Assembly (NCBI RefSeq): GCF_002995495.1
Contig: NZ_PVZV01000008.1
Location: 186,001 to 250,000, forward strand
Source of the DNA: Actinocorallia populi
GTDB lineage: Bacteria > Actinomycetota > Actinomycetes > Streptosporangiales > Streptosporangiaceae
DNA: 64,000 nt
Direction of reading: 5' to 3'
Positions 34,766 to 55,513 of this stretch are shown piece after piece. The stretch's first letter is position 1. Each line of letters begins with the position of its first letter. The notes beneath the pieces were generated by a model, which had not been told where the DNA came from, made no database searches, and worked only from the letters and a program-made list of their open reading frames with translations. Made by a program: the position numbers and the translations under genes.

Positions 34766-35401
34766 GTGATTCGGGTGCTGATCGCCGACCAGGCGCGGTT
34801 GTTCCGCAGCGGGCTGGCCGCGCTGCTGGCCGACGAACCGGACATCGTCCTGGGCGGCGAGGCGGACGACGCCGGCAAGGTGGCACGGGTGGCGATGGAG
34901 TGCGCGGCGGACGTCGCGCTGGTCGCCTCCGAACTGCCCGGCCTGGACTTCTTCCCCCTGATCGAGGAGATGCGCGTGACGGCGCCCGAGTGCGCGGTGG
35001 TCGTGCTGGCCGCGCGGAGCCGGCCGGGGGACCTGCGCCGCGCGGTGGCCGCGGGAGCCTTCGGCTTCGTGCTCAAGGACAGCTCGCCGGTCCAGCTGTC
35101 CGACGCCATCCGCCGGGTCGCGCGCGGCGAGCGGGTCGTCGACCCCGACCTGGCCTACGCCGAGCTGGTGACCGCGCCTCCGCCGCTCACCCCCCGGGAA
35201 CTGGACGTCCTCAATGTCGCGGCGGAGGGCGCGACGGTCGGCGAGATCGCCGAACGGCTGCACCTGTCACCGGGGACGGTGCGCAACTACCTGGCCCGGA
35301 TCGTCGGCAAGGCCGGAGCGCGCACCCGGGTGGAGGCGATCGCCATCGCCCGGGAGCGCGGCTGGTTGTGGCACGAATCCGTGCGGCGGTTCAACGGCTG
35401 A
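34766..35401 (+). CDS. Atypical NarL/LuxR-family response regulator (RamR/AmfR-like) without phospho-acceptor Asp
   Basis: 211 residues from GTG with AGGGAAGGG upstream. The receiver-like domain begins IRVLIADQARLFRSGLAALL: the usual DD acidic pair is D8-Q9. The position of the phosphorylated Asp (normally in LLDxxMPGxDG) reads LVASELPGLD, with Ala at residue 54. The C-terminal LuxR helix-turn-helix (LTPRELDVLNVAAEGATVGEIAERLHLSPGTVRNYLARI) is intact. It therefore cannot be switched by normal phosphorylation. No kinase gene is adjacent. Placement at the end of a lanthipeptide cluster parallels ramR/amfR, orphan regulators of SapB/AmfS genes. Its stop overlaps the convergent peptidase gene by 11 bp. 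Confidence 0.85.
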   Translation: MIRVLIADQARLFRSGLAALLADEPDIVLGGEADDAGKVARVAMECAADVALVASELPGLDFFPLIEEMRVTAPECAVVVLAARSRPGDLRRAVAAGAFGFVLKDSSPVQLSDAIRRVARGERVVDPDLAYAELVTAPPPLTPRELDVLNVAAEGATVGEIAERLHLSPGTVRNYLARIVGKAGARTRVEAIAIARERGWLWHESVRRFNG

Positions 35402-37319
35402 GGCCGGTCCCGGCGGCGAGGAAGGCCAGCAGGTCGGCGGCCAGCCCGGCGGCCGTGCCGGTGGCGCGGTCGCCGTGGCCCACCCCGGACTCGTGGCGCA
35501 GCAGGATCGGGCCGTCCCCGGAGGTGGCCCGCTGGAGCGCGGCGCACATCTTCCGCGCGTGCAGGGGGTCCACCCGGGTGTCGCCGCCGAAGGACGCGAG
35601 GAGGACCGCGGGATAACGGGTCCCGGGGCGGACCCGGTGGTAGGGGGAGTAGGCCAGCAGGTGGTGGAAGGCCGCGGGGTCGGAGGCGGAGCCGTACTCG
35701 GCGGTCCAGAGGGGGCCGAGGCCGGAGCGCTCGTAGCGGACCATGTCGAGCAGGGGGGCGACGCACACCGCGGCGGCGAAGAGCTCGGGGCTGCGGGTGA
35801 GGGCGGCGGCCGCCAGCAGGCCCCCGTTGGACTCCCCCCACAGGCCGAGCCGGTCGGGGGAGGTCCAGCCGTCGTCGATCAGGAGCCGGGCCGCGGCCAG
35901 GAAGTCCTCCAGGGTCCGCATCCGGTGGGCGCCCACGCCCTGGGAACGGCTGCCCGCGTCACCGCGCACGTGGGCGATCGCCAGCGCCCCGCCCGCCTCG
36001 ATCCAGGCCAGGGAGTCGGGGGCGTAGGAAGGCGTCATCGGCAGGCCGAACCCGCCGTAGCCGTGCAGGATCGTGGGACGGGGCCCGGCGCCGGGCGGAG
36101 CCAGGACGGTGACGCGTACCGGCGTCCCGTCCGGGGACGTCGCGGTGAGGACGTGGGTGCGGACCTCGGGGAGTCCGATCCGGGCGGGGGAGTCCTCCCA
36201 CAGGGACGCGGCCTCCGCGCCGCCGTCGTAGCGCCAGACCTGCGGGGGCGTGAGGGTGTCGGTGTAGGTGAACCAGGCGGAGTCGCCCTCGGCGGAGAGC
36301 CGCCCGAGGGTGCCGCGGCCGGGCAGCGCGACGGAACCCAGGTACGCGCCGCTCTCCCGGTCGTGCCGCAGGAGTTCACCCGCCCCGTCGCGGAGGCGGG
36401 AGACCAGCAGCGTCTCGGCGAGGACGGTGAAGTCGGCGAGCGGCGCCTCCGGGTCGGGCGGCAGGAGCGTCCGGCGTTCCCGGGGGCGGCGCGGGTCGGC
36501 GACGGCGAGGGCGAGCCCGTCCCGTTCCGGAACGGCCAGGTAGAGGCGCCCGTCGCGGCCGACGGCGGCGGCCAGCGCGTGGGGGACGGGCCGCGAGGGC
36601 GGCGCGGCGGGAGAGCCGTGCCGCAGGTCGGCCAGCCGCAGCCCCGTCCCCCCGGGCCCGGCCGAGGAGATCACCAGCCAGTTCCCGTCGTGGCTGATCC
36701 CGAGGCCGGGGACCCCTCTCACCCGCAGGACGGCGGTGTCCTCGCCGCCGACCCGGCGTACCCTCATCCACTGGTCGCGCACGTAGTAGAAGGCGTCCTC
36801 GCAGATCCAGGCGACGGGCGCGTGGCGGCACCCCGGGACGGGCGGGCCGAGCACGTCCCCGGTCCCGGCGTCCAGCACGTGGAGGTCGCCGACCTCGGTC
36901 CCGTCCCGGGACAGCTGGACGGCGACGCGGGTCCCCTCCGGGGAGGGGTCCCAGGAGTCCAGGACGGTCGTGCCGCCCGGATCCAGCAGGGCCGGATCCA
37001 CGATGGCCCGCCCGTCGGCGTAGAGGACGGGATGCGGGCGGCCGGGCAGGCGGCGCAGCGCGAACTCCCGTCCGGCCCGCCGGACCGGTGCGGTGACCGT
37101 CCCGGCGTCGGCCAGGGCCAGTGCCCGCTCGCGCAGGGCCTCGCGGCCGGGGAGCCCGGCGGCGTGGGCGCGCCACAGCGCGTCCTGCTCGGCCGACCAC
37201 CGGGCGGTCGCCGCCGAGGCCGCGTCCTCCAGCCAGCGGTAGGGGTCGGCCACGGGACGCCCGTGCAGGACCTCCACCAGGTCGCCGCGCTCCGCGCGCG
37301 GGTAGGCGGTCACACGCAT
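35391..37319 (-). CDS. Prolyl oligopeptidase (S9A), probable lanthipeptide leader protease
   Basis: 642 residues, typical S9A length. N-terminal beta-propeller at about 60-390; the start is typical (VADPYRWLED). C-terminal hydrolase domain: YGGFGLPMTPSY, catalytic Ser in GESNGGLL (about 496), Asp in GGDTRVDPLHARK (about 580), His in GVGHG (about 615). No signal peptide, so it acts in the cytoplasm. It cleaves after proline in short peptides. It is last in the lanthipeptide operon, its ATG sharing a base with the stop of the upstream ABC gene (TGATG). The closest functional parallel I know is FlaP, which trims the flavipeptin leader after Pro; the precursor here has exactly one leader Pro (residue 12). 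Confidence 0.9.
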   Translation of the reverse strand: MRVTAYPRAERGDLVEVLHGRPVADPYRWLEDAASAATARWSAEQDALWRAHAAGLPGREALRERALALADAGTVTAPVRRAGREFALRRLPGRPHPVLYADGRAIVDPALLDPGGTTVLDSWDPSPEGTRVAVQLSRDGTEVGDLHVLDAGTGDVLGPPVPGCRHAPVAWICEDAFYYVRDQWMRVRRVGGEDTAVLRVRGVPGLGISHDGNWLVISSAGPGGTGLRLADLRHGSPAAPPSRPVPHALAAAVGRDGRLYLAVPERDGLALAVADPRRPRERRTLLPPDPEAPLADFTVLAETLLVSRLRDGAGELLRHDRESGAYLGSVALPGRGTLGRLSAEGDSAWFTYTDTLTPPQVWRYDGGAEAASLWEDSPARIGLPEVRTHVLTATSPDGTPVRVTVLAPPGAGPRPTILHGYGGFGLPMTPSYAPDSLAWIEAGGALAIAHVRGDAGSRSQGVGAHRMRTLEDFLAAARLLIDDGWTSPDRLGLWGESNGGLLAAAALTRSPELFAAAVCVAPLLDMVRYERSGLGPLWTAEYGSASDPAAFHHLLAYSPYHRVRPGTRYPAVLLASFGGDTRVDPLHARKMCAALQRATSGDGPILLRHESGVGHGDRATGTAAGLAADLLAFLAAGTGLSR

Positions 37320-39013
37320 CAGGCTTTTCCTTCCACCAGTCTCACCGGGTTCACCGGCGGTTCGGATCCGAAGAGCTCGGCGTAGTGCGGGAACGAGTCG
37401 AGGAGTTCGGCGTGGGGGCCGAGCGCGATCGTGCGGCCGTCCATGAACAGCACCCGTGCGGCGCGCTTCGCCGAGGAGACCCGGTGCGCGACGACGAGGA
37501 GGACGCCGCCGCGCTCCATGAAGGCCCGCTCCGCGCGGGCCTCGGCCGCGGGGTCCAGGTGGCAGGTCGCCTCGTCCAGCACGGTCGGCCCGGCGGGGGC
37601 CAGGTAGGCGCGGGTGAGCGCGATGAGCTGGCGTTCGCCCGCCGACAGGAGGGCGGGGTCGACCCGGGCCGACAGCCCGCCGAGCCGCTCGGCGAGCCCG
37701 GTGAGCCCCACCGCGTCGGCGGCCCGCCAGAGCGCGGCGTCGGAGGCGGCGGCGTGGAAGGACAGGTTCTCGCGGAGCGTGCCCTGGAAGACGTAGGCCT
37801 CCTGGGGGATCAGCGTGCGGGCGGCGGGGTCGAGCAGCGGGGCGGGGACGCCCCGGACCAGGACCTCGCCGGTGTCGGGGGCGAGCAGCCCGCAGACCAG
37901 GCCCGCCAGCGTCGACTTGCCGATGCCGCTCGGCCCGACGACCGCCAGGTGGTCGTCGCCGTCGAGGGCCAGCGACAGCCCCCGCAGCACCGGCGCGGCG
38001 CGCGGGCCGTAGGCGAAGGAGACCCGGCGCAGCTCGACCTGCGGCCGGCCGGGGCGCGGCGGCCGCAGGTCGCGCCGCGGCGGGGGCGCGAGGAGCAGCA
38101 GGTCCAGGACGGCGGCGAGCCTGACGCCGCTCATCCCCAGGCCCTCGACCAGCCCGCCGAGCGCGGGGGCCAGCGACTGGGTGACGTAGGCCAGCGCCCC
38201 GACGACCGCGCCCGCGCTCGCGCCCCGGCCGAGCAGCCAGGGCGTGCCCGCCAGCAGGACCAGGGCGGGCAGCAGCCCGCCGAGCGCCAGGGCGACGGTC
38301 CGCAGCGCGGTCACCCGGGCCAGGGCGCGGCCCGCGCGGGCCTGCTCCGCCACGATCCCGCAGACCTGCCCGGCCAGGCGCTCCTCGGCCCCGCAGGCGG
38401 CGATGTCGCGCAGCCCGCCGGCCAGCCCGGTGACCGCGCCGGTGGTCCGCTCGTCCGCCCGCAGGAACGCCCGCTGGCGGCGGGCCAGGGCGGGCAGCGA
38501 GCACAGGAAGCAGCACAGGCCGAGCAGGAACGGCGGCAGCACCAGCAGCGCGATCTGCGGCATCAGGGCCAGCAGCCCCAGGACCACGCTCGCCACGGTG
38601 AAGACGAAGGACCGCAGGACCGTGACGACGGAGGCGAGGGAGTCCCTGGCCAGCTCGACCTGCTGGTTGGCGCGGGCCGCCGGCGCGTCCGCCGGGCGCC
38701 CCCCGGCCAGCCCGTGCCGGACGACATGGGCCAGCAGCCGGTCCCGGAACGGCTCGACCACCTCGGCCACCGCCAGCACGACCCGCCCGGCCGCGACCGC
38801 CGCCCCCGTCCAGACGAGGGCGAGCAGCGCCAGCCAGGCGAGGCCGCCGGCGGGCCGCCCCTCGGCGAACAGGTCGACGGCCCGTGCGACGGCGTAGCCC
38901 AGGAAGAACGCCGGGGCGCTCTCCAGCACCGACCAGGCGAGGATGCGCCTCAGCCGTCCGGGCTCCTGCCGCAGCGCCCGCCAGACGATCACCGGCAGGG
39001 GCCGCCGCCTCAC
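37319..39013 (-). CDS. ABC transporter, fused membrane and ATPase domains (RamB-like half-transporter)
   Basis: 564 residues from a GTG that overlaps the stop of the preceding ABC gene (GTGA), giving a start close to RRRPLPVIVWRALRQEP. Six membrane helices at about 20-305, then the ATPase: Walker A VVGPSGIGKSTLAGL (about 360-374), LLSAGERQLIALTRAYLAP (signature LSAGE, normally LSGGQ), Walker B VLDEATCHLDP, H-loop VVAHRVSSA. It probably pairs with the next upstream gene as a heterodimeric exporter of the modified peptide. No N-terminal C39 peptidase domain is present, consistent with a separate leader protease. Confidence 0.9.
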   Translation of the reverse strand: MRRRPLPVIVWRALRQEPGRLRRILAWSVLESAPAFFLGYAVARAVDLFAEGRPAGGLAWLALLALVWTGAAVAAGRVVLAVAEVVEPFRDRLLAHVVRHGLAGGRPADAPAARANQQVELARDSLASVVTVLRSFVFTVASVVLGLLALMPQIALLVLPPFLLGLCCFLCSLPALARRQRAFLRADERTTGAVTGLAGGLRDIAACGAEERLAGQVCGIVAEQARAGRALARVTALRTVALALGGLLPALVLLAGTPWLLGRGASAGAVVGALAYVTQSLAPALGGLVEGLGMSGVRLAAVLDLLLLAPPPRRDLRPPRPGRPQVELRRVSFAYGPRAAPVLRGLSLALDGDDHLAVVGPSGIGKSTLAGLVCGLLAPDTGEVLVRGVPAPLLDPAARTLIPQEAYVFQGTLRENLSFHAAASDAALWRAADAVGLTGLAERLGGLSARVDPALLSAGERQLIALTRAYLAPAGPTVLDEATCHLDPAAEARAERAFMERGGVLLVVAHRVSSAKRAARVLFMDGRTIALGPHAELLDSFPHYAELFGSEPPVNPVRLVEGKA

Positions 39014-40563
39014 TGGAAGACCTCCCGGTAGCCGGGGTCGCGCCACAGGTCGGTGTGCGCGCCGTGGCCGCGGATGCGGCCGTCCTCCAGCCACAGGACG
39101 AGGTCGGCCGCGGCGGCGGTGGCGGCCCGGTGGGTGACGACCAGCCGGGTCGCGGGGAGCGCGGCCACGGCGGCCAGGACCCGGTTGCGGGTGAGCGGGT
39201 CGAGCGAGGAGGTGGCGTCGTCCAGGACCAGGACCCGGCAGGGGCGGGCCAGCGCGCGGGCCAGCCCCACCCGCTGGCGCTCCCCGCCGGACAGCGGGGC
39301 GCGCTCGGGCGGGGTGGCGTACCCCCGGGGGAGGGCGCGCAGGAAGACGTCGGCCTCGGCCGCCCGCGCCGCGGGCACGGGATCGGCGCGCGGGCCGCCC
39401 AGGGTGATCGCCTCCCCCAGGGTGGGGCCGACCAGGACGGGCCGGTCGAAGGCCACCGAGACGGCCCGGCGCAGCGCCGGGCGGGACAGCTCCGGCACCG
39501 GGACGCCGTCCAGGAGCACGGGGAAGGCGGGGGGAGCGAGCCCGGCGACCGAGGCGGCGAGCCGGGACTTGCCCGAGCCGGACCGGCCGACGACGGCGAC
39601 CAGGGCGCCGCCGGGCACGGCCAGCCCGGCCAGTTCCAGGGCGCCGGGCCCTTCGGGCGGCTCCCGGTCGCCGTGCGGGGGCGCGGCCTCCTCCAGCACC
39701 GCCCGGATGCGGGCGCGGGCGGCGCGGGCGCGGGCGAGGGCGCCGACCTGGCCGAGCGCCGAGCTCAGACCGGCGCCCAGGACCGCGTAGCGGACCGCGG
39801 CGTACAGCTCCCCGACGGTCAGCTCTCCGGCGGCCAGGCGCAGCCCGCCCGCGGCCAGCACCGCCACCTCCAGGAGCGGGACGACCAGCCCGGCCCGGAC
39901 TCCGGCGCGGGCGTTGGCCCGCCACAACCGCATGCCGTGGGCGCGCAGGAGGGCGAGGGGGGCCAGGACCCGGGCGGTCTCGGCGTCCGCCGCGCCGGCC
40001 GCGGCGATCGTCCGGGCCCCGGCCAGGGCGTCGACGAGCCGGGAGGCGAGTTCGCCCTGGGTGCGCTGGTAGCGCTCGGCGAGGACGCCGGAGTCGCGGT
40101 GGAAGGCGCGCAGCACCCGGCCGATCAGGACCAGTGCCACGACGAGGGCGAGGGCGAGCCACGGGTCGATCAGGACCAGTGCCACCAGCCCGCCCGCGGT
40201 CGGGACGAGCGAGGCGAGCACGGCGATCCGGGCCTGGGGCGCCTGCCCGGCCTCCTCGGCGTTCAGCCCGGCCCGCGTGGCCAGCTCCCCGCCGGGGAAC
40301 CGTCCCAGCAGCGACGGCCCCGCCGCCAGGACATGCCGCACGACCCGCTCGCGCAACCGGGCCGAGGCCGCCGCGCCGGTCGCTCCCGCCGCCCAGGTCT
40401 CCAGGCTGTCGCAGGCCACCGCCGCGCCGACCAGCAGCGCGCAGGCCGGCAGGAGCCCGGGGTCCCCCGAGACCGTCCGGTCGAAGGCCGCGCCCAGGAC
40501 GGCCGGAAGGGCGAGTTGCAACGCGGCTCCGGCCACCGCGAAGAGCGCGAGCCACCACCGCAC
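39010..40563 (-). CDS. ABC transporter, fused membrane and ATPase domains (RamA-like half-transporter)
   Basis: 517 residues; the GTG at 40563 has GGAGG about 5 nt upstream, and the first membrane helix begins almost at once (RWWLALFAVAGAALQLALPAVL). Membrane domain about 1-280; ATPase with Walker A VVGRSGSGKSRLAAS (about 328-342), LSGGERQRVGLARALARP, Walker B VLVLDDATSSLDP (Asp-Asp where most exporters have Asp-Glu, so this site may be the weak, non-hydrolysing one), H-loop VVTHRAAT. It forms the first half of the presumed heterodimeric peptide exporter. It is separated from the precursor gene by two strong hairpins. Confidence 0.9.
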   Translation of the reverse strand: MRWWLALFAVAGAALQLALPAVLGAAFDRTVSGDPGLLPACALLVGAAVACDSLETWAAGATGAAASARLRERVVRHVLAAGPSLLGRFPGGELATRAGLNAEEAGQAPQARIAVLASLVPTAGGLVALVLIDPWLALALVVALVLIGRVLRAFHRDSGVLAERYQRTQGELASRLVDALAGARTIAAAGAADAETARVLAPLALLRAHGMRLWRANARAGVRAGLVVPLLEVAVLAAGGLRLAAGELTVGELYAAVRYAVLGAGLSSALGQVGALARARAARARIRAVLEEAAPPHGDREPPEGPGALELAGLAVPGGALVAVVGRSGSGKSRLAASVAGLAPPAFPVLLDGVPVPELSRPALRRAVSVAFDRPVLVGPTLGEAITLGGPRADPVPAARAAEADVFLRALPRGYATPPERAPLSGGERQRVGLARALARPCRVLVLDDATSSLDPLTRNRVLAAVAALPATRLVVTHRAATAAAADLVLWLEDGRIRGHGAHTDLWRDPGYREVFQ

Positions 40564-40603
40564 CGCGACCTCCGGTCCTCGGGAATGTTCCAGTCCGCAC
40601 GGG

Positions 40604-40639
40604 GGCTCCGGGCGGTGCTCCGCAGAGCCGCCCGGAGCC
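40604..40639 (-). terminator. Second hairpin between precursor and transporter genes
   Basis: GGCTCCGGGCGG and its exact complement (40604-40615 and 40628-40639) form a 12-bp stem with a 12-nt loop, 40 bp before the transporter GTG. With the hairpin at 40660-40697 it probably limits read-through so that more precursor than transporter mRNA is made (inference). Confidence 0.65.
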
Positions 40640-40659
40640 GTCTCACCTGTACGGCCGTC

Positions 40660-40697
40660 CCGGCGGCCGGACGTCAGGGGGCGCGTCCGGCCGCCGG
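40660..40697 (-). terminator. Strong hairpin directly after the precursor gene
   Basis: A 14-bp perfect stem (CCGGCGGCCGGACG, 40660-40673, against 40684-40697) with a 10-nt loop starts 5 nt after the precursor stop codon. Typical partial terminator or mRNA 3'-stabilising element following a lantibiotic structural gene. Confidence 0.75.
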
Positions 40698-40702
40698 TCC
40701 GC

Positions 40703-40831
40703 TCAGTGGCAGAGGAGCAGGCTGAGGTTGCTGGGCTTGGCCGAGGCGCAGCCCAGGACGGTCAGGGTGCTGCCGCCGCCGTGGCCGCCGCCGCCAGGGG
40801 TCTCCAGGGTCTGCAGGTCGAGCAGGGTCAT
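40703..40831 (-). CDS. lanA: Class III lanthipeptide precursor (RamS/AmfS-like), 42 aa
   Basis: A 42-codon ATG frame directly downstream of the synthetase gene, with a GAGAAGG ribosome site. The leader begins MTLLDLQTLETP; the LLDLQ box is the recognition motif of class III leaders (AmfS and RamS start almost identically). A Gly-rich GGGGHGGG stretch follows, then the core with two modification motifs: S21-TL-T24-VLG-C28 and S34-NL-S37-LLL-C41, both exact S-x2-(S/T)-x3-C patterns that give lanthionine or labionin rings. The peptide ends CH. The only leader Pro is residue 12, a plausible cut site for the clustered prolyl oligopeptidase. The product is probably a SapB-like amphiphilic morphogen or a related peptide; activity is unknown. 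Confidence 0.93.
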   Translation of the reverse strand: MTLLDLQTLETPGGGGHGGGSTLTVLGCASAKPSNLSLLLCH

Positions 40832-40901
40832 GTGATCCGCCTTCTCTTTCGCTGATGGGATGCGGGGGTCTCGCGGGCGCCTAGCGGCAGATCAGGGCAT
40901 G

Positions 40902-43502
40902 TCACGCACCTCCTTTCCAGGTGTCGGAGGGGGGAGCCGCTCGGTGCTTCCGGTCCGCGGTGCCGGGCGGCTGCATCAGGGGGAGGAAGCAGGGGGCCGC
41001 GTCGAGCGCGTGGCCCAGGGCGAACAGGACTCCGGCCGTACCGGTCGCGAAGTCCATCGACAACCGCAGGAGCCGGTCGCCGGGGAAGGCCGTCCCCCCT
41101 TGGTGGACCAGCGCGTGCCAGCGCAGTCCGGCGACGAGGCCGGGCAGGTCCGGGTCGCCGGGGGGCAGCGCGGCGATGAGTCCGGCGCGGCCGTTGAACA
41201 GGCCGGGCTGGACGAAGAACCGCGCCCCGGCGACGGCGCGCAGCCCGGCGAGGGACCCGGCGAGCCGCGGGTCGTCCCGGTGGGACAGGTAGCGGGACAG
41301 GACGGGGACGATGCCCGCCGAGCCCTCCTCCAGGTAGGGCAGGAGGCGCCAGCCCTGGTCGACCTGCAGGGACCCGTCCGGGCCGCGTCTGCAGCGGCGC
41401 AGGTCCTGGGCCAGGGCGTCGCGCGCCAGGTCCAGCAGCGCGGGATCGCCGTCGAGTTCGTAGGCGTGCAGGAACAGCAGCGCCGCCCCGGAGGAGCCGT
41501 GCATCAGCCCGGCCCGCGGGTGCCGGCCGCCGCTGAGCCCGGGGACGCCGTCCGGACCGCCGATCCGCTCGGCGCAGGTCCGGACGATCTCGCGCGCCGG
41601 GTCGGCGAGCCCGAGCCCGAGCAGGCCCAGCGCCAGCCCGGACAGGCCCGAGTACAGGCTCAGGCCCGGGTCGTGGCGGTGCCCGTTCAGGCGGTGCTCG
41701 TCCAGGCAGCGCCCGGCCAGTTCCAGCGCGTCGTCCCGGCGGCCGAGCCGGTGCAGCACGTGGGCGACGCCGATCACGCCGTCGTACAGGCCCAGCCCGT
41801 TGCCGGGCCGCAGCGCGCGGTCCAGCAGCCAGTCCTCGTACTGCGGGAACCGGCCCGCGCCGGTCTCGTACAGGGCCAGCAGGACGCCGGCCGCGCCGGT
41901 GGCGATGTTCACCGCGCCGCCGCCGCGGAACTGGGCGACGTCGCCGGGGAACAGCCGGTCGCCGCGTTCGGGGGTGGCCGAGGCCAGGATCGTGCGGTGC
42001 AGTTCGTCGCGCAGTTCCGGCCATGCCGCCGAGCCCTCCCGGGCCGCCCGGTCCAGGGCGGAGGGGGCCGCGGCGCGGGGGGCGCCCCGTTCGCGCCCGC
42101 CGGTCAGCACCCGCACGGCGTCCTCGATGAGGCGGGGCGGGACGGGGAAGGTCTCGGTGATCAGCGCCCCCAGCCGCGCGGCCTTGCCCGGGTCCAGCGG
42201 GAGGGTGATCGTCACCTGGGGGGCGAACAATCCCAGGACCAGGCAGGCCAGGGCGTAGCGGTCGGCCTCGACGCCGCTCCGGCCGGCCGGGGCGAGGAAG
42301 GCCGGGTGGGCCAGCGCGGGGCGGGCGTCGTCGGCGGCCGGGGAGGCGACCTCGAAGTCGATCAGGACCGGCCGCCCCTCGGCGGTCACCAGGATGTTCT
42401 CCGGGTGCAGGTCGCCGAAGACCACGCCGCGGGCGTGCAGGGCGGCCACCGCCTGCTCGACCTTCGGCAGGATCTCGCAGGCCCAGGCGGTGTACTCGGC
42501 CAGCGCCTCGGGCTCGGGACGGGCGGTGGACAGCGGGTAGCGGTTCACCAGCATGCGCTGGAGCGGTTCGCCGTCGACGAACCCGGTGACGAGGAACTCG
42601 TGCCCGCCGAGGACGAAGTGGTCGACCAGCTCCGGGACCACGTCCAGTCCCTCGAGGCGCCGCAGGATGTCGCGCTCGTGGCGGGAGCGGGCGACCGCGT
42701 CCCTGTTCATGGCGTCGAGACCGGCGTGCGGGCGGGACTCCTTGAGGATGACGCGCCGCCCGTCGCGGTCGTGGCCGAAATAGACGCCGCCGCCGTTGGA
42801 GAACTGGACGACGTTCTCGATCTCGTAGGGGAGGCCGGCGACGGTGACGGCGTTGCGCGCCTCCAGGTGGGGTTCGAGGAACGCCGGCAGGCGGATCCAC
42901 GGCGGGACGGCGAAGGCGACTCCGCGCACGTCGGGGACGAGTTCGCCTTCGCCGTTCTCCAGGGCCAGGACGCGTTCTCCTCGCTCGTCCAGGCAGTGGC
43001 GCTCGGCGAAGGCCCCGTACCTGACGTGGAGCGGCCCCGTCCCGTAACGCAGATCGCTGAGGATGTAGGGGCCCTCGATCCCGTCGAGCAGCTCGTCGAG
43101 CTCCTTGAGGGCGAGTTCGAGTTCCGCCTCGTCCCGCGGGTAGACGGTGATGAACTTCCCGCTGGAGGCGCGGTCGGCGGTCTTGGAGTTCTGCGCGAGC
43201 AGGGCGGGGGCGCCGCGCAGGTGCTTGAAGGCGATCCGCCGCCCGACGCAGTGCTCCCAGACGAGGTCCAGCGCGCGGACGGCGTCCTCGTGCCGGGCCG
43301 AGACGTGGATCTTCCAGCCCTGGGCCGGCAGGTCCCCGGCGTCCTCGGGCGCGTGGTAGACCCAGGTGTCGGTGACGTGGCGCAGCCAGCCGTCCGGCGC
43401 GGGGCCGATCGTCCTGGCGTAGTCCGAGTCCCGCAGCGCCGCGGAGGTGAGCCGGTCGTAGAAGAACGGATCCATCCGGCAGTAGAACTCGTAGCCGTCC
43501 AC
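40902..43502 (-). CDS. lanKC: Class III lanthipeptide synthetase LanKC
   Basis: 866 residues from GTG with GAGAGGGAGAC upstream. N-terminal phospho-Ser/Thr lyase domain about 1-215 (starts DGYEFYCRMDPFFYDRL; KIHVSARHEDAVRAL, AFKHLRG, GKFITVYP). Kinase domain about 225-500: VILKESRPHAG with the ATP Lys (about 252), catalytic loop GVVFGDLHPENILV (about 366) and LIDFEVA (about 381). C-terminal LanC-like cyclase domain about 530-866 with LMHGSSGAALLF (about 667) but without the Cys-Cys-His zinc ligands of classes I, II and IV, which defines class III. It phosphorylates Ser/Thr of the precursor, eliminates phosphate and closes the rings. Orthologous in layout to RamC/AmfT. Confidence 0.95.
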   Translation of the reverse strand: MDGYEFYCRMDPFFYDRLTSAALRDSDYARTIGPAPDGWLRHVTDTWVYHAPEDAGDLPAQGWKIHVSARHEDAVRALDLVWEHCVGRRIAFKHLRGAPALLAQNSKTADRASSGKFITVYPRDEAELELALKELDELLDGIEGPYILSDLRYGTGPLHVRYGAFAERHCLDERGERVLALENGEGELVPDVRGVAFAVPPWIRLPAFLEPHLEARNAVTVAGLPYEIENVVQFSNGGGVYFGHDRDGRRVILKESRPHAGLDAMNRDAVARSRHERDILRRLEGLDVVPELVDHFVLGGHEFLVTGFVDGEPLQRMLVNRYPLSTARPEPEALAEYTAWACEILPKVEQAVAALHARGVVFGDLHPENILVTAEGRPVLIDFEVASPAADDARPALAHPAFLAPAGRSGVEADRYALACLVLGLFAPQVTITLPLDPGKAARLGALITETFPVPPRLIEDAVRVLTGGRERGAPRAAAPSALDRAAREGSAAWPELRDELHRTILASATPERGDRLFPGDVAQFRGGGAVNIATGAAGVLLALYETGAGRFPQYEDWLLDRALRPGNGLGLYDGVIGVAHVLHRLGRRDDALELAGRCLDEHRLNGHRHDPGLSLYSGLSGLALGLLGLGLADPAREIVRTCAERIGGPDGVPGLSGGRHPRAGLMHGSSGAALLFLHAYELDGDPALLDLARDALAQDLRRCRRGPDGSLQVDQGWRLLPYLEEGSAGIVPVLSRYLSHRDDPRLAGSLAGLRAVAGARFFVQPGLFNGRAGLIAALPPGDPDLPGLVAGLRWHALVHQGGTAFPGDRLLRLSMDFATGTAGVLFALGHALDAAPCFLPLMQPPGTADRKHRAAPPSDTWKGGA

Positions 43503-45796: not shown

Positions 45797-47206
45797 GTGC
45801 TGCTGACGATCACGATGACTTCGGACGAGAGCGCCCCCGCGACGGACCTGGGCTTCCTGCTCCACAAGCACCCCGACCGCGTGCAGACGTTCGAGCAGGC
45901 CTTCGGGACGGCTCACGTGTTCTACCCGGAGGCCTCTCCCGAGCGCTGCACCGCCGCGCTGCTGCTGGAGGTGGACCCGATCGGCCTCCAGCGGAGCCGG
46001 GGTAAGAACAGCCCGGACTTCTCCCTGAGCCAGTACGTGAACGACCGCCCGTACGCGGCGTCGTCCCTGCTGTCCTCGGCGATGAACGCGGTGTTCCGCA
46101 CCGCGATGCGCGGGCGCTGCCCGTCCCGCCAGGAACTCGCCGACGGGGCCGTCCCGCTGGAGTTGTCGCTGCCCGCGCTGCCCTGCCGCGGCGGGGCGGC
46201 CTACGCGCGGAGGCTGTTCGAGCCGCTCGGCTGGGAGGTCTCCGCCGAGCCCGTCCCGCTGGACGAGCGCTTCCCCGCGTGGGGCGACTCCCGGTACGTC
46301 ACGCTGACCCTGCGCGGGACCGCGCGCCTCGCGGACGCGCTCAACCAGGTGTACGTGCTGCTGCCGGTGCTCGACCAGGCCAAGCACTACTGGCTCGCCC
46401 CCGACGAGGTCGACAAGCTGATCCGCGCGGGCTCCGGCTGGCTGGCCGACCACCCCGAACGGGCCGGGATCACCCGCCGCTACCTGGGCAACCGGAGCAG
46501 GCTGGTGCAGGCCGCGCTCGGTCGCCTCGCCGACGCCGAGGGCCTGCCCGAGGACGCGCTGGAGCTGCCCGAGGCCGACCGGTCGGAGGAGGAGCACGAG
46601 CGCAGGGTCCCGCTGAACGAACGGCGGCTGGAGGCCGTCTCCGCCGCGCTGAAGAAGGAGGAGGCGCGCTCCGTCCTGGATCTGGGATGCGGGCAGGGCA
46701 AGCTGCTCGCCCGGCTGCTGCGCGACCCGTCCTTCGCCCGCGTCGCCGGCGTGGACGTCTCGTACACCGCCGTCGCCATCGCCCGCCGCAGGCTGAAGGT
46801 CGACCGCATGCCCTCCGCGCAGGCCGCGCGGCTGGAGCTGTTCCAGGGCGCGCTGACCTACCTGGACGACAGGTTCCGCGGGTACGACGCCGCCGTGCTG
46901 ATGGAGGTCATCGAGCACGTCGACCCGCCCCGCCTGCCCGCCCTGGCCCGCGTGGTCTTCGGCCACGCGCGGCCCCGGACGGTCGTGGTGACCACGCCCA
47001 ACGTGGAGCACAACGTGCGCTACGAGGGCCTGACGGGGATGCGGCACGCCGACCACCGCTTCGAGTGGACCCGGGCGCAGTTCCGCGAGTGGGCCGAGGA
47101 GGTCTGCGCCCGGTACGGCTACCAGGTCCGCTACGAGCCGGTGGGCGAGGACGACCCGGAGGTCGGCCCGCCCACCCAGATGGGCGTCTTCACCGCCGTG
47201 CGGTGA
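45797..47206 (+). CDS. hen1: Hen1-type 3'-terminal RNA ribose 2'-O-methyltransferase
   Basis: 469 residues. Start set at the second of two adjacent GTGs so the protein begins LLTIT-like, as in other bacterial Hen1; the GTG 3 nt upstream is equally possible. N-terminal Hen1-specific domain about 1-240 (ATDLGFLLHKHPDR, LYLLP-type YVLLPVLDQAKHYW). Methyltransferase domain about 285-469: SAM site LDLGCGQGKLLARLL, Mn2+-binding residues in EVIEHVDPPRL, and TPNVEHN with DHRFEWTRAQF. It marks repaired RNA 3' ends against re-cleavage. Its partner Pnkp, normally adjacent, is not in this window. The 3' end overlaps the convergent methyltransferase gene by 17 bp. Confidence 0.93.
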   Translation: MLLTITMTSDESAPATDLGFLLHKHPDRVQTFEQAFGTAHVFYPEASPERCTAALLLEVDPIGLQRSRGKNSPDFSLSQYVNDRPYAASSLLSSAMNAVFRTAMRGRCPSRQELADGAVPLELSLPALPCRGGAAYARRLFEPLGWEVSAEPVPLDERFPAWGDSRYVTLTLRGTARLADALNQVYVLLPVLDQAKHYWLAPDEVDKLIRAGSGWLADHPERAGITRRYLGNRSRLVQAALGRLADAEGLPEDALELPEADRSEEEHERRVPLNERRLEAVSAALKKEEARSVLDLGCGQGKLLARLLRDPSFARVAGVDVSYTAVAIARRRLKVDRMPSAQAARLELFQGALTYLDDRFRGYDAAVLMEVIEHVDPPRLPALARVVFGHARPRTVVVTTPNVEHNVRYEGLTGMRHADHRFEWTRAQFREWAEEVCARYGYQVRYEPVGEDDPEVGPPTQMGVFTAVR

Positions 47207-48005
47207 ACAGGAAGTTGCGCGGGAACCCCTCCACCTCGCGGGGGAGGGGCTCCCACGGCCAGCGCCCGAAGGACGCGCCGGGCTCACCCGGGCATTTCAC
47301 CTCGGAAGGCTGCCAGCCGCAGTCGGCCAGGAAGTCCTCCGGCCGGTCGGTGCCGAACAGCCAGGGGCAGCCGTCCTCGGTGAGCCTGCGCAGCCCCTCG
47401 CGGGAGAACTCGCTGACCATCGACTGGTGGCTGAGCAGGTCGCCCGCCAGCACGCTTCCCGGCGCGGACAGCTCCGCCACCCCGCCCACGAGGGTGCGGG
47501 CGTCCTCCTCGGGCAGGTAGAAGAGCAGCCCCTCGGCGATCCACAGGGTGGGCGCGCCGGGGTCCCAGCCGGCCTCCCGCAGCGCGGACGGCCAGTCGCC
47601 GGTCAGGTCCGCCGGGACGGTCCTGCGCTCGCAGCCGTGCCGGGCGCCGAGCCCGGCCAGCTCCTCGTCCTTGGCCTCCAGCAGCGCGGGCCGGTCCACC
47701 TCGTAGACGACCGCGCCGGGCCGCCACGCCAACCGGGCCGTCCGGGTGTCCAGCCCCGCGGCCAGCAGGACGACCTGGCCGGACGCCCCGGCGACCGCCT
47801 CGTCCAGGTAGCGGGTGCGGATCGCGATGAACTCCTTGACGCCCGGGTTGCCGTAGCGCTCCAGCAGCCGGAAGCCCTCCTCCCCGGCCAGGTCGGCGGC
47901 GTACGGGTCGGTGAACAGCGCGTCCGGCAGCCCGGACTCGTGCGCCCGTACGGCCGCCGTCCAGCGGGCGGTCGCCGCGACCGCCTCCTCCTTGCGTTCG
48001 TGCAC
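47190..48005 (-). CDS. SAM-dependent O-methyltransferase (PPM/leucine carboxyl methyltransferase-like, TIGR00027 type)
   Basis: 271 residues from GTG with GGAGATCCC upstream. Motifs: ARWTAAVRAHESGLPDALFTDPYAA (start of family), VVLLAAGLDTRTARLAW (SAM loop), YEVDRPALLEAK, LWIAEGLLFYLPEEDA. These are the marks of the actinobacterial PPM-like O/carboxyl methyltransferases often found in polyketide clusters. It is 8 bp after the thioesterase gene and the last member of the PKS operon, so a carboxyl or hydroxyl group of the polyketide is a likely target (inference). Confidence 0.88.
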   Translation of the reverse strand: MHERKEEAVAATARWTAAVRAHESGLPDALFTDPYAADLAGEEGFRLLERYGNPGVKEFIAIRTRYLDEAVAGASGQVVLLAAGLDTRTARLAWRPGAVVYEVDRPALLEAKDEELAGLGARHGCERRTVPADLTGDWPSALREAGWDPGAPTLWIAEGLLFYLPEEDARTLVGGVAELSAPGSVLAGDLLSHQSMVSEFSREGLRRLTEDGCPWLFGTDRPEDFLADCGWQPSEVKCPGEPGASFGRWPWEPLPREVEGFPRNFLFTARR

Positions 48006-48013
48006 GGGATCTC

Positions 48014-48448
48014 CTAACGACTCTGGACCTGGGAAAGGACGCGCCGCATCGACTCGGGGAAACGGGCGGGGACGAGATGGCCGTTGGCGTCGGTGGTGAC
48101 GCAGGCGATCCGCTGCTCCCCGGTGGCGACGAGCTCCTCGCCGCCGTCGGGGAGCTGCCGCCAGTACTCGAACGTCATCACCGACTGGGTCTGGCCCAGC
48201 TCGCCCTGCCGCATCCGCACCACGACCTCGTCGAACACCCGCAGCTCGCGCAGGTAGTCGCAGTGGCAGCTGACGGTCAGCAGCCGCACCCCGTCGGCGA
48301 ACCCGGCGACGACGTCGGGCGTGTAGTCCCGCAGGAACAGCTCGCGGGCCCTGCCCTGCCACCGGATGTAGTTGACGTAGTTGACGTTGCCGAGGAGGTC
48401 GGTGTCCTCGATGGTGACGATGTGCCGGTACTCGTAGGCGTCGCCCAT
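48014..48448 (-). CDS. Hotdog thioesterase of the enediyne-PKS type (E10/E7-like)
   Basis: 144 residues. YRHIVTIEDTDLLGNVNYVNYIRWQGRARELFL is the 4HBT fold signature as found in SgcE10/CalE7; it lacks the usual catalytic Asp and uses the Asn/Arg-type pocket of this subgroup (NVNYVNY...R). It releases the polyene chain from the ACP of the iterative PKS; in known systems PKSE plus this enzyme gives a linear C15 heptaene. Its ATG shares one base with the PKS stop (TGATG), so the two are translationally coupled. Confidence 0.9.
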   Translation of the reverse strand: MGDAYEYRHIVTIEDTDLLGNVNYVNYIRWQGRARELFLRDYTPDVVAGFADGVRLLTVSCHCDYLRELRVFDEVVVRMRQGELGQTQSVMTFEYWRQLPDGGEELVATGEQRIACVTTDANGHLVPARFPESMRRVLSQVQSR

Positions 48449-51400
48449 CAGCGGGTCTGCCCTTCCGCCGGGCCCTCGGAGGTGAGGACGGCCAGCACGA
48501 CGGGCTCGGCGACGTCCCGCAGCCGGGTGGCGTAGGTGAGGACGCGCTGCCCGCCGCAGCGCAGCCCGGCCCAGCCGCCCTCGTTCACCGAGTCGAAGGT
48601 GAGCGGGGTCTCGACCGGCAGCCCGGCCTTGACCACGCACTCCCCGGCCGACCACACGCGGGTCGCGGCGGCGTCGAGGCTCTCGCCCGCCTCCTCGGCG
48701 ATCGTCTCGGCCAGCGCGAGCCTGTCCGGGCCGAGCAGGCTCGCCCAGTCCCGGCTCTCCACGAGCTCCAGGTCGACGCCCGGAACGGCCGCCGCGACCG
48801 TGACGCCGGCCCGGTGCGAGACCGAGACCGTCCGTCCGGAGTCCACCTCGGGCTTGCCGTCGGGCCGCCAGGAGACCTCGGTGCCCGCGCCGAGCAGCCG
48901 CTTGAGCATCAGCTCGCTGGCCTCCCGCCGCCCGGCGCCCGCCGGGTCGCGGTCGAGCATGATCCGGCCGGCCAGGCCCTGGTCGATGAGCGCCTGCTCC
49001 AGGTAGGAGCCGAGCAGCATCGGCACCCACACCGACGGCACCTCGTACTTGCTGACGAGCTGGGTGGTGAAGCCCTCCCAGGTCTCGATGACCCGCCCGT
49101 CGTGCCCGGTGACCTCCACGTCCCATTCCTCGTCGTCGAACCGGTGCCGGACGTGCACCGTCGCCGGGGCCGAGCCGGTCGCCGGTCCGGGCACCAGTCG
49201 CCGGATCCCCGCGGGGATCGCCAGGACCGTCGGGCCGCACGTCTGGATCGGCTGCATGTAGGCGTCGCGCGCGGCCGGGTCGCCCAGCAGCAGCGTGGAC
49301 GGCAGGTAGCGGCCGAACCACGCCGCGCCGGTGCCGGGCAGCAGCCGGCTCGTCGCGAGCTGCGCGCCGGTCCGGTGCACGCTGTCCACCAGCTTGAACC
49401 GCGGCCCGTGGAAGAGCATCGGCCCGTACAGGTCGGTGGCCGGGTCGAACGCCATCGCCGGCAGGTCGGCGTCGGCCGGGTCGGCGAACCCGAGCGGGGC
49501 GGGCACTGTGCTCTTCTGGGGGGCGACCCCCAGACCCCCGAGGGCCGGTTCGGCCGATCCTCGCTGCGCTGCGGTCGTCCGAACCGGGGCGGAGAAGTCG
49601 CACACGGCCCGGTAGTGGTCGAGCTGGAAGCGGGTGGTGCTGGAGCGCACGACCGTGGTGACGCGGCCGGGCGCGGTCACCAGGGCGGCGACCCGCAGCG
49701 TGACCTTCTCGTCCTCGCCGAGGACCACGGCGCGCAGGAACTCCACGTCCTCCAGGACCGGGACGGCGTCGGTGCCCAGCACCCCGGCCGCGGCCTGCGT
49801 CATCGCCTCGATGCCCACGGTGCCCGGAAGCACCGCGTTGGTGCCGCCGCTGAAGACGTGCTCGGCCAGGTAGGGGTCGTTGGCCCAGCTGAGCTCGGAG
49901 TCGGCGACCAGCTCGATGCCGGGGTAGAGCACCCGCGGCTGCTCCAGGAAGCGCAGCAGCGGCAGCTCGCCGGAGCCGAACCGGACGGTCGGCATCTGCC
50001 CGAACCGGCCGGTGACCACGGCGACGACCGGCGCGTCCGGGTCGGCGACGAGGCCGCGCAACATCCGCACGCCCTGGTCGGGGGTGATGGTGTGGACGCC
50101 GACGCGCGAGAGGTTCTCCACCGAGCCGAGCCGCTCGCCCATGCCGACGCCCGACCACAACGACCACTCCACCGCGCGGCAGCGGGTGTGCGGCAGCCGG
50201 GCGGCCAGCTCCTGGACGAGGTCGCTCTGCCACTCGTTGGCGACGGCGTAGTGGGCCTCGCCGCGCAGCCCGGCCCGCCCGGTGATGCTGCCGAAGGTGA
50301 CGAGCAGCTTCAGCGTGTCGTGGTCGACGGCGTTCAGGACGGCTTCCAGGCCGGTGACCTTCGGGTCGATGGTCCGCCGGTAGTCGTCGTCGGTGAGCTC
50401 CTCCAGCAGCTTCGGCACGTTGCCGCCCGCCCCGTACAGCACGGCGGTGACCTTGCCGAGGACCTCGCCGACCTCCTGCACGGTCGCGGCGACGGCGGCG
50501 TGGTCGGTGACGTCGACCCGGAAGTACCGCGCGGTCACCCCGGCCGCCTCCATGCGGGCCAGGTTGGCGGCGAGCTCGTCGTCGGACGCGGGGTCGGAGC
50601 GGCCGAGCAGGGCGAGCGCGGTGCCGCTCTCGCGGGCCAGTTCCAGTGCGCACTCGGCGGTGATGCCCTTGCCGCCGCCCGCCACCAGCATGACGTCACC
50701 GGTGCCGACCGGCAGGTCCGTCCCGGCGAGCGCGACCTGCTGGAGGACGGGCTCGGTACGGGTGCCGTCGGCGGCGTAGGCGGCCTCGCGGAACCCGTCG
50801 GTCGCGACGGCCTCGGCGACGACGCGCTCGATCTGCCCGGCCTGCGCGAGGTCGGCCGTGATGACGGCCGTGGCGACCCAGGGGGCCTCCAGGTGCAGGG
50901 TCTTGCCGAAACCGGCGGAGCCCGGTCCCTCCTGGACGATCACGCAGCGCGAGACGTCCTTGTTCGCCAGCACCGCGCCGGCGGCCGCGCGCAGCAGGCC
51001 GAGCCGCTCGGGTCCGGCGGCGGGCACGACGGCCACGACGCCCGAGCCGCACGCGGCGGCCTCCAGCGCCTCGGCCAGCGCGGGCCCGGCCGGGTGCGCG
51101 CCGACGAGCCGCCACGCGCCGGGCGTGCGCATCGCGCTGCGCGCCGGGGCGTCCAGCTCGCGCCAGTCGATCGCGAACGCCTCGACCCAGGTGTCCACGC
51201 CGGGCGGGACGATCTTGGCGGCGGCCTCGGCCGAGTCCTCGGTGGCGGCCTCACCGGTCTCGACGAGCCGGGTGAGGGTCTCGGCCACCTGGCCGAGCGT
51301 GGCGGTCGCGTAGCCGGTCGGCGCGGCGGGCCGGTCCAGGCCGAGCTTCTTCATCGCCTCGCCGACGATCTGCCCCACCACGATCGAGCTCAGGTGCAGG

Positions 51401-54276: not shown

Positions 54277-54313
54277 GGAAGGGAACTCCAGGAAAGGGGT
54301 ACGGAAGGCGGCG

Positions 54314-55513
54314 TCAGCGGCCGAGACGGTGCAGGGCGTTCACCCGCAGCGCGCGCAGCAGCGCGGGCGGGGAGACGAACTCCTTCACGTCGATGAGCCG
54401 TCCGGCGAACCGCTGGTGGTGCCGGGCCGCGGCGGCGTCGCGCGCGGCGGCGGAGAGCAGGAGCTTCTCGAACGGGTTGAACGGGCGGACGGAGGCGTAG
54501 TCCTCCATCAGCTTGTGGTGGCCGTCGAGGGCGGAGCGGTGCCTGCGCCCGTACTCCTCGAGCCCCTCGCCGGGTCCCCGGACGGAGGCCTCGGCGAGCC
54601 ACTGCGCGGACTGCAGGGCCCAGCCGATGCCCACGCCCCACACGGGGTCGGTGGCCAGCGCCGCGTCGCCGACGAGCGCGAGGCCCGGACGGTGCGGCTT
54701 GCGGTAGACGTTGGGCAGGTCGAACGTGCCGACCACCTTCGAGACCCGCTCGCCCTCGTCGATGGGAGGGGCGTCGGGCAGTGCGCGGATGAAGCGCTCG
54801 TAGGAGCCTTCCATGTCGCGCCGGAAGGCCGCGGAGTGCTTCTCCTTGGCGGGGGAGCAGGCGACCACCGTGATGTCGCCGTCGTTGGGGAAGGCGAAGG
54901 CGGTGTCGGGGTCGAGGAACCACACCCGGCTGGGCGCGGGGGGAAGCCCCCGGTACTGGGCGAAGAACCCGAGCCTGTTGTTGGCGCTGACCCTGGCGGG
55001 CAGGCCGCTGTGCGCGGCGACGGTGGAGTTGCGGCCGTCCGCGCCGACGGTGAGCCGGGCGGTGACGGTCCGCCCGCCGGTGCGCACTCCGGTGATCCGG
55101 CCGTCCTCCTCCAGCAGGCCGGTGACCTGCTCGCCGAGCATCAGGTCGACGCCCGGCGTCTCGGCGGCGGCCCGCCGCAGGACCGGGTCGAGCGTGGAGC
55201 GGCGGACGTTGAGCCCCCGGGGCAGCGGGGGGCCGCCCGGCTCCGGGCGGGGCCGGATCCAGCCCCACGGCGTCCACAGCTCGGTGACGTGCCACCGGGC
55301 GCCGGCGGCCTCCAGCTCCGGCAGCACTCCCAGTGTCTTCAGGACGGGCAGGGCGCCGGGCTGGAGGGTGTGGGTGCACAGCACCTTGTGGGCGTCCATG
55401 CCGGTGCGCTTCTCCAGCAGCGCGACCCGCGCGCCCTGCGCCGCGAGGAGCATCGCGGCCGCGCAGCCGGCCGTGCTCGCCCCCGCGACGACGACGTCGT
55501 ATTCGCCGGACAA
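54314..55513 (-). CDS. FAD-dependent oxidoreductase/monooxygenase of the PKS operon
   Basis: 399 residues, TTG start preceded by GGGGAGAG. N-terminal FAD-binding motif DVVVAGASTAGCAAAMLLAAQGARVALLEK (GxGxxG variant GASTAG), mid-protein VGADGRNSTVA (DG motif), and C-terminal GLALVGDAALATDPVWGVGIGWAL (the GD motif). This is the group-A flavin monooxygenase/geranylgeranyl-reductase-like fold seen in tailoring enzymes. It is the first gene of the operon, 37 bp ahead of the PKS, so it probably oxidises or reduces the polyene product. Halogenase activity is unlikely, as I see no halogenase WxWxIP motif. Confidence 0.87.
   Translation of the reverse strand: MSGEYDVVVAGASTAGCAAAMLLAAQGARVALLEKRTGMDAHKVLCTHTLQPGALPVLKTLGVLPELEAAGARWHVTELWTPWGWIRPRPEPGGPPLPRGLNVRRSTLDPVLRRAAAETPGVDLMLGEQVTGLLEEDGRITGVRTGGRTVTARLTVGADGRNSTVAAHSGLPARVSANNRLGFFAQYRGLPPAPSRVWFLDPDTAFAFPNDGDITVVACSPAKEKHSAAFRRDMEGSYERFIRALPDAPPIDEGERVSKVVGTFDLPNVYRKPHRPGLALVGDAALATDPVWGVGIGWALQSAQWLAEASVRGPGEGLEEYGRRHRSALDGHHKLMEDYASVRPFNPFEKLLLSAAARDAAAARHHQRFAGRLIDVKEFVSPPALLRALRVNALHRLGR

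Follow-up and report, generated by a model that had tools for sequence, protein, structure and literature searches.

The locus considered here raises the question of whether a class III lanthipeptide cluster that shows the gene order of the Streptomyces ram and amf clusters and also encodes a prolyl oligopeptidase (POP) is a hybrid of two systems or an ordinary member of one of them. It lies in a stretch of 64,000 nucleotides of Actinocorallia populi DNA (hereafter the window, meaning the whole stretch that was analyzed), and a preliminary description had presented the ram layout plus a flavipeptin-like POP as a special combination, suggestive of a SapB-like morphogen. We consider it likely that the locus is instead a flavipeptin-type class III cluster, in which the POP would cut after Pro12 of the precursor, with later trimming and ABC export.

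Five genes form a minus-strand operon, with a response regulator gene convergent at its end, and both their placement and the ram-like order reported in the preliminary description are borne out by coordinates and profile matches. Specifically, the class III lanthionine synthetase, LanKC (866 aa; 40902..43502, minus strand), matches NCBIfam NF038151 with 1003.6 bits (cut-off 575, full model covered, E 8.3e-302), as opposed to 349.9 bits, below the cut-off of 650, for the class IV model. RamC_N (254.2 bits), Pkinase, and LANC_like all score above their cut-offs, giving the RamC-type N terminus, kinase, and LanC-like domain that define a class III LanKC. The 42-aa precursor, MTLLDLQTLETPGGGGHGGGSTLTVLGCASAKPSNLSLLLCH (40703..40831, minus strand), passes Pfam RamS PF19402 (54.3 bits, cut-off 24.3) and NF033212 (SapB/AmfS family; 59 bits, cut-off 25, E 3.6e-16), the latter a broad model that does not discriminate between the SapB/AmfS and flavipeptin types. 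It has the LLDLQ-type leader and S/T-x2-S/T-x3-C core of a class III precursor and, in particular, a leader proline (Pro12), two S/T-x2-S/T-x3-C motifs, a proline at the ring junction (Pro33), and the C terminus PSNLSLLLCH. ABC half-transporter A (517 aa; 39010..40563, minus strand; PF00664 and PF00005) has no C39 peptidase domain listed in the Pfam profile search. In half-transporter B (564 aa; 37319..39013, minus strand) Pfam sees the ATPase domain only (PF00005, above cut-off), and ABC exporter models span residues 114-547. The start of B lies inside the end of A (GTGA) and that of the POP gene inside the stop codon of B (TGATG), overlaps that make it very likely that A, B, and POP belong to a single operon.

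The POP (642 aa; 35391..37319, minus strand) contains the S9 catalytic domain PF00326 (116.7 bits) and the propeller PF02897 (116.2 bits; E <= 2e-33 for both). Its presumed triad, Ser497, Asp580, and His615, is invariant in an alignment of 24 cluster POPs, which was used in place of an earlier, narrow catalytic-motif pattern that was complete in 36 of 78 POPs; the start residues of some of these proteins are approximate. No hydrophobic signal stretch is seen at the N terminus of the 642-aa translation, and the enzyme is probably cytoplasmic. The proposal that it acts as a leader protease inside the cell is a probable one.

A hairpin with a perfect 14-bp stem, found by stem search, occupies the gap between the precursor and transporter genes (40660..40697, minus strand). 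With duplicate copies of a locus retained, stems of 10 or more are present in 123 of 158 rows that have a POP and in 30 of 75 that lack one, compared with a mean of ~5.5 in base-composition shuffles, and they differ in sequence between loci. The whole stretch around the hairpin has a z of -1.60, with 14 of 200 shuffles folding equally well. The hairpin may act as a partial terminator or affect stability, and it could govern how much precursor mRNA there is relative to transporter mRNA.

A comparison with flavipeptin and a search for orthologous clusters, both proposed in the preliminary description, answer the question of type. The genome of Kribbella flavida, home of the flavipeptin cluster (FlaKC, FlaA, FlaP), contains two POP clusters, either of which may be flavipeptin, each with LanKC, precursor, POP, two ABC genes, and a convergent regulator. 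Both precursors carry Pro12 and the PSNLS core, and the 22-residue C-terminal core of one of them matches that of the window at 21 of 22 positions; the core of L093, from a genome of the window's family, is identical to it. In a tree of family LanKCs, a branch with SH-aLRT 97 separates those of the POP-bearing loci from 58 POP-free ones. A quick LanKC tree of 92 rows likewise unites the POP-bearing loci, Kribbella included (SH-aLRT 98); a single POP-free locus, L247, falls among them. Against the assignment, the window proteins are on long branches, at 0.65 for LanKC and 0.95 for POP. The K. flavida clusters differ from the window in having the POP gene directly after the precursor gene, rather than last in the operon; a POP between precursor and transporter genes was treated as a variant order and not as a defining feature. 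In the quick LanKC tree the Kribbella-order loci form their own group (support 99), whereas the window order is not one group and requires three changes. The locus thus has a cluster POP with intact catalytic residues, a leader proline, a K. flavida-like core, and the corresponding LanKC grouping. Given the core match and the grouping with Kribbella we assign it to the flavipeptin type and not to a SapB hybrid: judged from its sequence, it is an ordinary, well-formed flavipeptin-type cluster with the gene order usual for its family, and its peptide type is already known and common to many related bacteria.

The extent of the layout shows how little of it is special. The RamC_N domain, adopted as genome probe since PF05147 (LanC-like) missed the window LanKC and matched another gene and NF038151 was swamped by kinases, is found in 252 of the 341 genomes of the window's family (E 1e-20), and within the three genomes of its genus in the window's own genome only. 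A search of the 341 genomes with the window POP gave at least 81 matches of at least 594 bits, the window counted, the next match scoring 576 bits. It is an undercount, as the search scored at most three candidates per genome and at this level lacked the cluster POP of genome G312. Five matches at contig ends were left out, and 75 regions were fetched together with one weaker match in G176 (L092-L167). The order LanKC-A-B-POP on one strand is present at 78 or more loci in 77 of the 341 genomes (window counted), each of these 78 yielding at least one precursor. More than one precursor gene occurs in 23 of 78 POP-bearing loci, with up to four in tandem (among L092-L167, e.g., L125), several loci having identical cores and different leaders.

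The set was then widened beyond these loci, which had been chosen by POP match. It includes sixty RamC_N loci with no listed POP (L168-L227, of which L207, in G312, turned out to be POP-bearing), the best 80 loci of a LanKC scan of named genomes and 20 Kribbella regions out of 48 matches, both chosen by LanKC, and three further regions chosen by POP score across the class. After removal of 52 copies with identical LanKC DNA, and with eight loci that have <7 kb downstream set aside (among them L233, L239, and L243, which carry a POP-type precursor on a cut contig), there are 116 distinct POP-bearing loci, found via POP and LanKC: 79 with the window order and 37 with the Kribbella order. Among the best 80 LanKC matches the former occurs in Nonomuraea, Streptosporangium, Microtetraspora, Herbidospora, Acrocarpospora, and several Actinomadura loci, and the latter, with POP directly after the precursor, in Kribbella, Jiangella, Labedaea, Microlunatus, and Nocardioides loci. 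A LanKC match was obtained in 37 of 38 Kribbella genomes and a POP in 19 of the 20 Kribbella regions fetched. Combining a ram layout with a POP is therefore ordinary, and so is the placement of the regulator, which the K. flavida clusters share. The titles and abstract beginnings searched, most subscription journals being outside the scope, gave no account of this cluster type in the Streptosporangiaceae. POP-free clusters with WECC-type precursors, presumably resembling labyrinthopeptin, were also encountered (L223 and L226 in two genomes of the window's family, L397 in one of the genus Kribbella).

These data bear on the reading in which the product is a SapB/AmfS-like surfactant morphogen and the POP an accessory that brings it to its mature form prior to export, a reading partly compatible with the flavipeptin assignment. 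It draws on the order of synthetase, precursor, two ABC genes, and LuxR-type regulator, shared with ram and amf, and on the precursor passing the SapB/AmfS and RamS models, although the breadth of NF033212 deprives that match of the power to separate the two types. The window differs from ram/amf in its cluster protease, the S. coelicolor and S. griseus sequences being outside the comparison. The SapB core has a GDSSLS-type second ring. This ring is absent from the window core, which is of the flavipeptin type and nearly identical to the K. flavida cores, and the window LanKC clusters apart from the LanKCs whose precursors have a GDSSLS core. We therefore regard the reading as unlikely and the SapB-like morphogen of the preliminary description as doubtful; morphogen activity of the window peptide is at most a possibility.

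The flavipeptin-type assignment also draws on the pairing of POP and precursor. With Pro12 defined as the fifth residue following LQ, and with a precursor motif filter that makes no demand for proline, all 152 precursors from the 116 distinct POP-bearing loci retain Pro12 and terminate in PSx(L/I/V)Sx3CH. At the 52 POP-free loci with a precursor (12 of 64 gave none that passed the filter, some since the candidate lacked a DLQ motif), the conserved end is found in 0 of 81 precursors, yet Pro12 is found in 55 of the 81; a separate count for the POP-free sister clade gives 48 of 51. Pro12 was accordingly rejected as a marker of POP processing, and its distribution indicates that it is older than the POP or serves another purpose too. 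At L247 (Planomonospora sp. ID67723) the cluster lacks a POP and the precursor lacks both Pro12 and the conserved core end. The genome of this strain yields just one POP match at E 1e-40 or better, scoring 510.6 bits, as against 655.6 and 520.2 in the related L296 genome, which suggests one event of POP loss in which the entire precursor changed. A limit on this association between POP and kind of precursor is that it amounts to approximately one gain and one loss. Cluster POPs are in turn distinct from 19 POPs presumed to be housekeeping, so classed by the assumption that no LanKC lies nearby: in a quick, unrooted 64-row POP tree the two kinds, both of which are carried by the window genome, are split by a single change (housekeeping group 99), with the cluster POPs of L273 and L167 adjoining the housekeeping group (support 81).

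While the anatomy, kinship, and conservation of the cluster are observed directly, all the enzymatic steps we infer. By analogy with its family, LanKC would phosphorylate, dehydrate, and cyclize the two S/T-x2-S/T-x3-C motifs of the core. According to a review of leader proteases (PMC10885120), efficient cleavage by FlaP takes place only behind Pro(-12) and requires installed rings, and residues -11 to -1 are likely taken off by metalloproteases. Pro12 is residue -12 from the conserved Ser in the K. flavida L381 precursor, which agrees with this site, and residue -9 in the window, with the core assumed to begin at that Ser. The presence of Pro12 wherever there is a POP, together with the preference of FlaP, leads us to take the window POP as cutting the modified precursor behind Pro12 in the cytoplasm. 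The leftover glycine-rich stretch would then be trimmed by aminopeptidases encoded elsewhere, and the two half-transporters would export the peptide. Class III cluster POPs are not always paired with a leader proline, since, of the six precursors predicted for Brevibacterium POP clusters, just one has such a residue (PMC5719810).

Alternatively, the POP could be a passenger gene and an unlinked AplP-like M1 peptidase could remove the leader, as would suit the sister clade, which has the same leader type without a cluster POP, and the five M1 peptidase matches above cut-off in the window genome, each only putatively AplP-like. A passenger would not be expected to persist as this POP has, kept across the LanKC clade in two gene orders with one loss seen and with Ser, Asp, and His invariant in the 24 aligned proteins, and we judge this quite improbable. 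We give a little less credence still to the idea that the POP proofreads its product at a conditional second site, Pro33-Ser34, at which an unmodified core would be cut and destroyed, whereas in finished peptide Pro33 would be protected by the second ring and release would occur at Pro12 alone. Least probable of all, indeed very improbable, is that the POP also or mainly cuts after Pro33 to give two single-ring products, for although the proline-containing core end accompanies the POP (152 of 152 precursors versus 0 of 81) and is missing with it in L247, this pattern comes from one clade only, a linker proline occurs in the POP-free sister clade as well, in CTPHEN, and both K. flavida precursors share Pro33 while FlaP is reported to cut the modified peptide efficiently only after Pro(-12) (PMC10885120).

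Walker et al. 2020 (PMC7268733) describe actinobacterial class III clusters as usually lacking a protease. In contrast, within one large actinobacterial branch of these clusters the presence of a POP is the normal state. The Firmicutes LanPB clusters (family III 3) of that study likewise combine a class III precursor with a cluster POP, but, by its description, they are set apart by their occurrence in Streptococcus pneumoniae with a CAAX protease. The actinobacterial branch supplies many natural POP-substrate pairs and one natural POP loss, and such pairs allow testing of the odd preference of FlaP for ring-bearing peptide.

The LuxR-type response regulator (34766..35401, plus strand; PF00196 and PF00072) overlaps the end of the POP gene by 11 bases, and a convergent regulator is present at 95 of the 116 distinct POP-bearing and 37 of the 64 POP-free loci. 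Its description as an orphan holds, as no sensor kinase was found among the eight neighboring frames scanned, from 30.4 to 55.5 kb; nor were direct repeats, as candidate regulator sites, found upstream of the synthetase. At the presumed phosphoacceptor position 54 the window regulator, aligned with 57 others from POP loci, has Ala, where Asp is present in 56 of the 58 (window counted), and in the regulators of POP-free loci in 24 of 31, the other seven having Gly. Position 9 is Gln in the window and Asp in 49 of the 58. The window regulator may work without phosphorylation. Beyond it lie genes for an LTD-domain protein, an RNA methyltransferase, and a permease, and upstream of the synthetase that for a GH3 glycosidase, past which (47190-55513, minus strand) are a methyltransferase, a type I polyketide synthase (1942-aa frame with KS, AT, KR, and DH domains), and an FAD-binding oxidoreductase. 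Elsewhere in the window genome a second LanC-like gene (G000:C3:236099-237082, L001) perhaps belongs to another lanthipeptide cluster.
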